A DNA stretch of 64,000 bases from Priestia megaterium. Its GTDB lineage: Bacteria; Bacillota; Bacilli; Bacillales; Bacillaceae_H. The stretch spans positions 1,898,001 through 1,962,000 of the forward strand of contig NZ_CP085442.1 in the NCBI RefSeq assembly GCF_023824195.1, in the 5' to 3' direction. Positions 60,869 through 64,000 of this stretch are shown piece after piece. A program made the translations under genes and the position numbers. Numbering within the stretch: the first letter of the stretch is position 1; the number at the start of each line of letters is the position of its first letter. The notes beneath the pieces were generated by a model, which was not told where the DNA came from, searched no databases, and saw only the letters and a program-made list of their open reading frames with translations.

Positions 60869-61450
60869 ATGTCGAAACAAGAAAGTGAATACACAATAAA
60901 AGACGCATCATTGTTTGGATTAAAATTAATGCAGGTAAGTAAAGCCATCTGGAGAGCTGCGGAAGATGACTGGGAGCAATGGGTGAAACCTTATGGTCTG
61001 AATGTAAATGAGCATCATATTTTATGTTTAGCTAGTAACACGGGAGAAATCTCTATGTCAGAGTTAGCTAATTTAGGAGCTATGCATATCTCTACAGCAT
61101 TTAATTTTTCGAAAAAATTAGAAAATCAAGGGTATCTGCATTTGTCCAAAAGAGAAAATGATAAAAGAAACACCTACATCAAATTGACTGAAAGCGGAGA
61201 ACAATTATTGCTTGATACGCTCAAAGGGTATGAACCACATAACAGTAAGATATGTAAAGGCGCACTTCCTTTAAAAACGTTATACGGCAAATTTCCCGCT
61301 TTTCCAGAGCTAGTAACCGTTGTTCGCCATGTTTGCGGCGGCGAGCTTGTGACCGTTGCTGATCAACCTTTTGTGAATATAGAAGAAGTGGGAATAGAAG
61401 AAAATGAAGAAAATGAAGAAAAGAAAGAAGTCCAGCTAACTAGTAATTGA
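60869..61450 (+). CDS. ScoC/Hpr-like MarR-family transition-state regulator
   Basis: 193 aa. It follows the ScoC/Hpr pattern of B. subtilis closely: a long N-terminal helix (ASLFGLKLMQVSKAIWRAAE), WVKPYGLNVNEHHILCLAS, the winged helix MSELANLGAMHISTAFNFSK then KLENQGYLHLSKRENDKRNT, and the C-terminal PLKTLYGKFPAFPEL. ScoC represses protease, peptide-transport and sporulation genes. The tail here is acidic and repetitive (VGIEENEENEEKKEV). Because ScoC is a core chromosomal gene, this is either the main copy or a paralogue carried on an accessory replicon. AAGGAATG lies before the ATG. Confidence 0.88.
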   Translation: MSKQESEYTIKDASLFGLKLMQVSKAIWRAAEDDWEQWVKPYGLNVNEHHILCLASNTGEISMSELANLGAMHISTAFNFSKKLENQGYLHLSKRENDKRNTYIKLTESGEQLLLDTLKGYEPHNSKICKGALPLKTLYGKFPAFPELVTVVRHVCGGELVTVADQPFVNIEEVGIEENEENEEKKEVQLTSN

Positions 61451-62028: not shown

Positions 62029-63168
62029 TTATAGAGCGTTAATTTTTGCCTGATAATACCCGTTGGCAATTTTTCGTATATACGTAAAGAAATTGGACTC
62101 CATTTCATGCACAAGAGGGCGAAATGTATCCATCCTTTCTTCTATGTAAGTTTGTTGTAAGTAACGCTGAACGGACGTTAATGATTTTTCGATTATATCT
62201 ATACCAAACTCATGTACAATGGAATGAATATCTTCCTTTTTAATTGAATAATGGCCAAAAGATTTAAAGAAATTCTTAAACTGAGCAAATGCATGCTCTC
62301 CACGGATTTTTTCGATTTCTTTTTGTTTTTTACTATCATGAGCACCAGTTAAATTAAAGCTTAAAATAAAACCATCCTTGATTTTTTCAATAATTGATTT
62401 TCTTGGCTGCTTTTCTTCTAATAATGTTTTGACACAATCATCTTTTTCTAGTACATCGATACGGAAAATTGTACTCAATTTACTAGCCATTTCTTTAATA
62501 GCAGCTTTATAGCCAATGTATTTTGGAAGAATGTGTTTTACCTCGGTGTAAGATAAAAGTGCTTCTGAATCTTTCTTTACGTTTACATCAGATTCGTATA
62601 CATACAACGCACGTAAAGCCAGACGCAGCATGTTGATATTTTTAATAGCCAGCAATTGATAAATCACTTCCATCGAAACAGAAGTATAACCACCTTTTGA
62701 AGTATATGTACTGTGATCTTCATCAAGCATTTCAGGATTATATGATATGTTTTGAACATCAGCAGCTTCTTTTATATGTAAATCTAAAAAATCCTCTAAA
62801 TAGTTGTTTAAAGAAACTTGAATATAGTCTCCCCATAAACGATCCCAGCGAATGATGTCATAGTCTTCTAAAAGCTTATTATTATTTTGGACGGTCCGAA
62901 CGGAACATTGGATTGTATTAGCCAGTTCTTGCTCAGAAATAATTGAAATATGCCCTTGGCTGTTACATTTGGCTACGTAAGCTAAAATTTGCTTCATCAG
63001 AGAACCCGTCCACTTTATGTCTACAAAGTTTTTTGCAAGACCAAATGAATGTTTTTCATAGTAATAGCTATTGTCTCGTTTAGTGTTTCTATTCAAGCCG
63101 CTCATAACAATCAGCAGTTTATTTGCTACAAGGGTGTGCCGTTTTAGTGACAGCTTTTGTATACTCAT
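62029..63168 (-). CDS. putative iteron-binding replication initiator (winged-helix protein)
   Basis: 379 aa, basic, no membrane segment. GAAAGGAGG lies before the ATG. An N-terminal winged-helix is seen at about 45-110 (FVDIKWTGSLMKQILAYVAK, SEQELANTIQCSVRTVQNNN, LLEDYDIIRWDR). The middle (about 165-225) is helical with VIYQLLAIKNINMLRLALRA, and a region of about 225-290 (LSYTEVKHILPKYIGYKAAI) could form a second wing domain, as in two-winged-helix initiators. I do not recognise a named Rep family. The reasons to call it an initiator are context: its promoter at 63210-63238 abuts the first of at least 11 same-direction repeats that run to the window edge. A repressor of an unknown locus is the alternative. 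Confidence 0.6.
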   Translation of the reverse strand: MSIQKLSLKRHTLVANKLLIVMSGLNRNTKRDNSYYYEKHSFGLAKNFVDIKWTGSLMKQILAYVAKCNSQGHISIISEQELANTIQCSVRTVQNNNKLLEDYDIIRWDRLWGDYIQVSLNNYLEDFLDLHIKEAADVQNISYNPEMLDEDHSTYTSKGGYTSVSMEVIYQLLAIKNINMLRLALRALYVYESDVNVKKDSEALLSYTEVKHILPKYIGYKAAIKEMASKLSTIFRIDVLEKDDCVKTLLEEKQPRKSIIEKIKDGFILSFNLTGAHDSKKQKEIEKIRGEHAFAQFKNFFKSFGHYSIKKEDIHSIVHEFGIDIIEKSLTSVQRYLQQTYIEERMDTFRPLVHEMESNFFTYIRKIANGYYQAKINAL

Positions 63169-63209
63169 GTAGTTACCTCCTTTCTAAAACTATATACGTC
63201 GTCTTTTAC

Positions 63210-63238
63210 AGTATAGACACAGTCATATAGGCTGTAAA
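63210..63238 (-). promoter_or_regulatory. promoter of the initiator-like gene with inverted flanks
   Basis: On the minus strand TTTACA (63238-63233) and TATACT (63215-63210) are spaced by exactly 17 bases, a good sigma-A promoter. Its elements lie within an inverted repeat (TTTTACAG at 63204-63211, CTGTAAAA at 63232-63239), and the first iteron begins at 63239, touching the -35. Binding there would block transcription, which fits self-control of an initiator. Confidence 0.75.
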
Positions 63239-64000
63239 ATGACATATTTACACGGAAAATTGGTGCATTTTTTTACAAGACTAGTGATACCAAGGGACGA
63301 GACATCTATTTAAAAGGTGACATATTTGCACGGAGATGTGGAGCAAAAATAGCGTTATATTTCATAAACGTTGATAAAACAGCATTCTGAAAACAAATGT
63401 CGTATTATGACGGATGAAATACACAAAATGCGACAAATTCAAAAAAATTTTTGATGTAAAAATGACATATTCGCACGGAGAATAGGAGCAAAAATGATAA
63501 AAATAAAAATTCGAGTGGCAAAGTGACACATTTGCACGGAAAATAGGGACAAAAAAAAGAAAAATGCCCTTTTTGAGACACAAAAAGTTCACATTTTTAG
63601 AGGGGATAAACAAACATTTGCAGCAAAAATAGTGTTTTTTTAAGAAAGTGGCATGTTTACACGGGAATCTGGAGCAAAAAACACTTTTGCACGGAGGTGT
63701 GGAGCAAAAATTGGAGAAAACGAAGAGGGAAAGTCGCTGTCACAAGAAAATTTATGTAAAAGTGGCATATTTGCACGGAAGATTGGAGCCAAACTTATAG
63801 TAAATGCAGTATAGGAAGAAAAACGACACATTTGCACGGGAATCTGGAGCAAAAAACAATTATAATACTTTTTTCAGACACAAAAAGTTCACAAAATGAT
63901 GAGGAAAGTGAAGTTTAATAGCTATATTAGCAGGGGAAATAATATGTTTACATGGAGAATTGGAGCAAAAAAACACTTTTGCACGGAAATGTGGAGCAAA
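63239..64000 (+). repeat. iteron-like direct repeat array, at least 11 copies
   Basis: The unit is about 32 bp: TGRCAYATTTGCACGGRRAT followed by NTGGAGCAAAAA. Copies begin near 63239, 63318, 63463, 63523, 63612 (degenerate), 63649, 63681, 63762, 63824, 63942 and 63972; all point the same way and the last runs off the window. Positions of the CACGG core are 63251, 63329, 63474, 63535, 63660, 63690, 63774, 63835, 63951 (CATGG) and 63982. Two pairs are head-to-tail with 30-31 bp period and two pairs have 61 bp period. There is no CRISPR-like constant spacing and no cas gene. Frames inside the array carry repeated peptides on the minus strand only because of the repeats. Confidence 0.92.
63451..64000 (+). 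repeat. ~300-bp tandem higher-order repeat within the iteron array
   Basis: The block 63451-63750 is repeated from 63751 on. In both, an ATGTAAAA sequence is followed by two iterons 61 bp apart, then AGACACAAAAAGTTCACA (63576-63593 and 63876-63893, exactly 300 bp apart), then two iterons 30-31 bp apart. Matching cores are displaced by 300, 300, 291 and 292 bp. Confidence 0.85.

Follow-up and report, generated by a model that had tools for sequence, protein, structure and literature searches.

Iteron-type plasmid replicons of the RepE (mini-F) and pi (R6K) type combine a Rep_3-type initiator gene with an adjacent array of direct repeats (iterons) of about 20 bp, one of which lies at the initiator promoter. 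A large-plasmid replicon needing two genes is known from the Bacillus cereus group as the ORF14/ORF16 minireplicon of pXO1 (PMC3256208), and some Vibrio cholerae strains with a single fused chromosome are reported to carry both ori1 and ori2 on it (PMC6284228, PMC5603330). Here, a stretch of 64,000 nucleotides from Priestia megaterium (contig NZ_CP085442.1, positions 1,898,001 to 1,962,000; referred to as the window) was found to contain at its right end an iteron array flanked by two genes, A and B (locus 1). We suggest that this locus is, very probably, a plasmid-type replicon by descent that was captured by the chromosome and is still functional, and that it represents an unnamed iteron family with two proteins. 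The case that two intact plasmid-type units of this kind are kept in the chromosome of the P. megaterium group is strong, and the replicon reading is based on their layout, their kinship with plasmids, the predicted RepE/pi-like fold of B, and selection on both proteins and iterons.

Layout of locus 1

In reading direction the order is gene A, a gap of 0.9 kb containing the iterons, then gene B. Ten full iterons of 33 bp (minus-strand consensus TTTTTGcTCCAnnTnTCCGTGcAAAtaTGTca) were found by repeat search across positions 63237..64000 of the window, with the last copy ending 2 bp past the window edge; they start at 63237, 63315, 63460, 63521, 63646, 63676, 63760, 63821, 63937 and 63968, share one direction, and have 64-100% identity to the reference copy. 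A first-pass annotation, made from the sequence alone, had counted at least 11 same-direction repeats of about 32 bp. The direction and ten full 33-nt copies stand; the eleventh would be a shortened minus-strand copy with its middle missing, read at about 63613..63632. Nine copies in the gap scored at least 16/20 matches, against at most 2 in 15 dinucleotide shuffles. When the whole 5.98-Mb assembly was scanned with the iteron pattern (up to 3 mismatches), all 8 forward matches fell at locus 1, with none in reverse and none for a reversed-pattern control. A scattered chromosomal repeat, present at many unlinked sites, is therefore rejected. Directly repeated iterons next to an initiator-like gene are what is expected of an iteron-type (theta) plasmid replicon, and this is what locus 1 contains.

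Gene B (62029..63168, minus strand) is an open reading frame (ORF) of 379 amino acids, preceded by a ribosome-binding site, AGGAGGT (63175..63181, minus strand), and by a promoter-like TTTACA-N17-TATACT (63210..63238, minus strand), whose -35 element is overlapped by 2-3 bp by the nearest iteron. The scan that located the promoter returned 8 promoter-like sites versus 9.3 in shuffles, and so is no evidence by itself; the TTTACA-N17-TATACT site is identical across five genomes. The protein and the promoter touching the first repeat are both as first annotated.

Gene A, an ORF of 478 amino acids on the minus strand (contig positions 1962068-1963504), lies beyond the window edge and was missed in the first-pass annotation, which had proposed a search past that edge for more repeats and for parA/parB. 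Its 3' end is 66 bp beyond the end of the array; no parA/parB was recognised by eye. A strong stem-loop (-21.4 kcal/mol, z -7.8) follows A, and B therefore seems to have its own promoter. A terminator scan downstream of A found none, though the same stretch folds strongly (z -7.8).

A second repeated element, TGTGAACTTTTTGTGTCT, is present within the array in two minus-strand copies exactly 300 bp apart (63576..63593, inside another repeat family of the window, and 63876..63893). A similar element, GTGAACAAAAAGTGTC, can be read in the corresponding gap of a P. koreensis plasmid. This element (TGTGAACTTTTTGTGTCT; GTGAACTTTTTGTGTC element) might be a second binding site besides the iterons.

Protein families and predicted fold

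No family in Pfam or NCBIfam was matched by B above its curated cut-off, in keeping with the first impression that it lies outside the nameable Rep families, and matches to PHROG families were weak only. Among seven members of the B family no Rep family appeared in the Pfam results, the cut-off of Rep_3 (PF01051) not being reached. The predicted model of B has a tandem winged-helix fold over about residues 8-276, which matched RepE and pi in structure comparison, followed by an extra C-terminal helical part (residues 277-379). These results support the view that B is a winged-helix initiator-like protein of the RepE/pi kind, to judge from its predicted structure, without a named sequence family. 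The B protein in the record of P. aryabhattai B8W22 is 97% identical to that of the window. A phage origin for B is rejected: none of 50,697 phage records (searched with B only) gave a match, and neither a phage family nor a regulator family lacking a replication role was recovered, apart from the weak PHROG matches.

Protein A of the window genome gave no match to RPA (PF10134). Of 15 relatives of A that were scanned, 3 matched RPA, one with 26.4 bits (residues 263-391) and two others at E 1.4e-4 and 0.013. Rep3_N was matched by 1 of 11 A members at E 0.0044, which is below the curated cut-off, and a single PHROG family, of unknown function, was found for A (2e-12).

Related units on plasmids

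By tblastn in a collection of 72,556 plasmid records, B was found in 15 and A in 35, with carriers including Exiguobacterium, Paenibacillus, Clostridioides, Jeotgalibacillus, Terribacillus, Virgibacillus, Niallia and Priestia. All 15 B-bearing records also contain A, and in 14 of these the two genes share a strand, with B following A at a distance of up to 3.6 kb. In the remaining record, an Aneurinibacillus plasmid (NZ_CP116888.1:306251-309216), A and B are divergent. Seven Clostridioides plasmid records of ~127-136 kb carry A relatives, and B relatives with ~50% identity come from strains of the B. cereus group, where they lie on ~490-kb contigs (P0022, P0023). The B cluster of the protein database represents 359 sequences and the A cluster 141. 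Among 397 genomes across the order, A was matched in 16, two of these matches being only fragments.

Iterons are a regular feature of the family. Downstream of A, 17 of 18 gaps tested (both chromosomal units included) contained 5-30 repeats, versus at most 3 in 15 shuffles each; the 18 loci are not fully independent, G243/G050 and G129/Alkalihalophilus being close relatives. For G129, G169, G216 and G152 the gap was set at 1,200 bp from the end of A, which in the first three runs into the next gene, and in the Terribacillus plasmid another gene stands between A and the gap. The sole repeat-free gap follows a broken A in another chromosome (G152); this chromosome belongs to another genus, and its A (L089:6733-8679) is decayed, with an in-frame stop. 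At all 17 intact loci a large same-strand ORF follows the array, but it belongs to the B family at only 10 and to other sequence families at 7; A is thus the constant part of the unit and B the variable part.

The Exiguobacterium plasmid pMC1 (NC_023287.1), a circular, relaxase-bearing multi-resistance plasmid of 71 kb, was checked in full. No annotated replication gene was seen besides the A-B unit, within a gene table that is incomplete; the unit itself is annotated as hypothetical proteins, and two ParA genes follow soon after B. Relatives of locus 1 are in this way found on complete circular plasmids, where they are the likely replicon. None of the 9 plasmid records opened shows a replicon type. 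The layout of an iteron plasmid, recognised in the first-pass annotation, is supported by these relatives on large plasmids and by the array beside an initiator-like gene; that annotation was incomplete in that it recorded one protein of two and one such locus of two.

Only two Priestia plasmid records match A: a P. koreensis plasmid and the P. megaterium megaplasmid pFDU301A, the latter of a distant type (37% identity). pFDU301A (L039:9285-10558) has about 30 iterons, mostly in alternating 31- and 33-bp steps, between A and a downstream gene of 523 amino acids, and its array can be misread as an ORF of the opposite strand.

A second unit in the same chromosome

Locus 2, at 2.944-2.948 Mb of the contig, consists of A2 (487 amino acids), 16 iterons mostly in steps of ~31 bp, and B2 (340 amino acids). 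In midpoint-rooted trees of A and B, locus 1 falls beside the P. koreensis plasmid; A2 is placed with Alkalihalophilus and B2 with Virgibacillus and relatives. Since the two loci group apart in both trees, they look like two separate captures rather than one duplication, as far as sequence comparison can tell. The iterons of locus 1 closely match those of the P. koreensis plasmid, and those of locus 2 and of pFDU301A differ. The difference between loci 1 and 2 fits what compatible replicons need.

Locus 2 sits in a stretch of ~10.5 kb (contig ~2.9387-2.9491 Mb) that is absent from the matching place in a small-genome relative, G002, in which the two flanking genes have relatives that lie side by side (one flank has 55% identity over 119 residues, cut by the end of the piece). 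This stretch also contains genes that we take to be look-alikes of malate:quinone oxidoreductase, a second pyruvate-phosphate-dikinase regulator and a small mechanosensitive channel. For the regulator gene, a close match was found only in the five large genomes described below.

Selection on proteins and iterons

The ratio of nonsynonymous to synonymous substitution (dN/dS), measured against four other genomes, was 0.008-0.033 (A) and 0.079-0.109 (B) at locus 1, and 0.005-0.022 (A2) and 0.073-0.164 (B2) at locus 2. The values of ten genes in the neighbourhood ranged from 0 to 0.36 (for hpr, uxaC, metC and adh, not all four genomes gave a match, owing to the range fetched or to ungapped matching). 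A is among the most constrained genes compared.

In five-genome alignments, specified iteron positions vary 5.8% at locus 1 (8 of 10 copies met the threshold) and 7.7% at locus 2 (16 copies), versus 17.1% and 19.3% outside iterons. They are thus 2.5-3 times less variable than spacers, and circular shifts equalled this constraint in only 0.16% (locus 1) and 0.12% (locus 2) of trials; the iteron motifs were derived from the reference genome of the alignment, which may slightly favour the result. Positions within the iterons that the consensus leaves unspecified are at least as variable as those outside (21.9% and 53.1%), the pattern expected when selection acts on the consensus rather than on the stretch.

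Carrier and genomic setting

The contig is 5,155,594 bp long and begins with dnaA: the carrier of locus 1 is the chromosome. Of the three carriers first proposed (large plasmid, chromid or integrated plasmid), a plasmid or chromid is rejected for a 5.16-Mb molecule that starts with dnaA, and only an integrated plasmid fits. Both loci occur in 5 of 10 genomes of the genus, namely the five of 5.1-6.0 Mb, where both are intact and at the same places; neither was found in the five genomes of 3.9-4.2 Mb.

To the left, locus 1 is bordered by hpr/scoC. This Hpr/ScoC-type regulator (60869-61450) lies 0.6 to 16 kb from gene B across the five large genomes, each of which has two or more additional matches to it (about 51-52% identity); in G006 one of these contains a stop. 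The right neighbours are presumably a glyoxalase-like gene, an AI-2E-type transporter and a uronate isomerase. The transporter-like gene keeps its place near A in the five large genomes. No empty site of locus 1 could be delimited: in the three small genomes compared, no other gene of the stretch matched beside the transporter-like gene.

Large and small genomes of the genus differ in size by ~1 Mb, and the two loci are ~1 Mb apart. That the interval is one integrated megaplasmid is not supported: in a 20-kb sample at 1.90 Mb of genome G009, 5 of 16 ORFs have their matches at 1.62-1.64 Mb of G002, a position consistent with those of the flanking samples. Samples inside the interval match G002 less often (8/75 ORFs vs 66/235 outside), in a comparison with pieces covering about 38% of G002, one of them wholly masked.

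Replication and possible present function

We propose that B would be made from the promoter touching the iterons, and that its two predicted winged helices might bind iterons and so repress its own gene. A, from a separate upstream unit, would be the partner that all members of the family share, and it probably cooperates with B in opening DNA or loading the helicase. The unit would still work as a protein-DNA system, firing rarely or conditionally if at all, and might also set incompatibility with related plasmids.

Several observations weigh against a replicon in this sense. The dN/dS of B is ordinary for its neighbourhood, and very low values are seen for A only. Support from predicted fold covers B and not A, and among the listed fold matches of B the regulator CodY is ~1 Z unit below RepE, in one domain only. 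The link of A to RPA falls below the curated cut-off of 27 bits (26.4 and 15.5 where a score is shown). Among the ORFs beside either chromosomal copy no partition gene was recognised (by eye, with no family search). There is no excess of DnaA boxes (TTATNCACA, up to 1 mismatch) in 13 gaps, which are within the range of 50 single-base shuffles, locus 1 having 0 and locus 2 having 1. DnaA boxes are common but not universal in iteron-type origins. Finally, GC skew is positive through the 64 kb beside locus 1 (all eight 8-kb bins; lowest +0.025) and negative in 14-16 kb around locus 2, with no sign of strong bidirectional firing.

Explanations of the present role of the units can hold together with a replicon origin by descent. 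It is possible, if rather unlikely, that the units act in plasmid exclusion, their iterons and initiators making the chromosome incompatible with any plasmid of the same type that enters the cell. Titration and handcuffing cause incompatibility between iteron plasmids. The close match of the locus 1 iterons to those of the P. koreensis plasmid fits such a role, as do the different iterons of locus 2 and pFDU301A, which coexisting replicons need, and the scarcity of A on Priestia plasmids. That count is weak, because P. megaterium plasmids in the collection were uncounted and close records were possibly left out, and exclusion alone gives no obvious need for both proteins to be intact.

An active accessory origin at each locus, starting replication in normal or stressed growth and helping to copy the terminus half of a large chromosome, is unlikely. 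P. megaterium is polyploid. The proteins and iterons of both units are conserved and, in G009, twenty 20-kb samples place the skew switch at 2.32-2.50 Mb, flanked by locus 1 at 1.85 Mb (skew positive) and locus 2 at 2.80 Mb (skew negative), each transcribed away from the switch. Against this, the skew does not change sign next to either locus: near locus 1 it falls no lower than +0.025 in the window and +0.031 outside it (sample at 1.70 Mb of G009) and so stays positive, which disfavours the view that forks have often left locus 1 leftwards in the course of evolution. Rare firing is compatible with the skew data, as is unidirectional firing towards the terminus, which would leave no skew mark. 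A natural multi-origin chromosome, with oriC and two distinct captured plasmid-type origins flanking the terminus, each with a two-protein initiator and dormant except for firing rarely or under stress, is the boldest form of this idea and likewise unlikely.

A purely regulatory role, in which A and B would by now control transcription at the array or at other sites and take no part in replication, is quite unlikely. An idle relic of an integrated plasmid is very improbable: the ~10.5-kb locus 2 stretch is absent at the matching place in one small-genome relative, and the broken, iteron-free A of another chromosome indicates that decay does happen, but proteins (A above all) and iteron sites are both constrained and both loci are intact in all five large genomes.

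Comparison with known replicons

For the preferred reading, captured replicons still functional, no description of a replicon of the A-B type, of iterons or of extra origins in P. megaterium was found in the open-access literature (subscription papers lying mostly outside it). The layout and sequences given here describe a seemingly untyped replicon family of large Bacillales plasmids, and would aid the classification of plasmids, including the resistance plasmid pMC1. To our knowledge, bacterial chromosomes are thought to use one origin only; the chromosome of this common soil and laboratory bacterium, with its two intact plasmid-type units under selection, is a natural test of this rule, and the present chromosomal job of the units is an interesting question.

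The nearest counterparts of B are RepE and pi, with which it shares the predicted tandem winged-helix fold, the array beside the gene and an iteron at the initiator promoter. It differs in having no Rep_3 sequence match and in its additional C-terminal helical part, and the iterons of locus 1 are ~33 bp long. Also unlike RepE and pi, a second conserved protein, A, stands across the array, and DnaA boxes are not in excess. The nearest named family for A is Replication initiator protein A (RPA), matched by 3 of 15 relatives, below cut-off in the two for which a score is shown, and not by the A of the window genome.

The pXO1 ORF14/ORF16 minireplicon resembles the A-B unit in being a two-gene replicon of a large plasmid; in the plasmid collection no record of the genus Bacillus was matched by A or B (tblastn, E 1e-5), and pXO1 was compared by description. 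The V. cholerae strains with ori1 and ori2 are likewise reported to carry a plasmid-like origin in the main chromosome. Those are exceptional single-chromosome strains of a two-chromosome species, whereas here five related genomes have retained two small units at matching positions.
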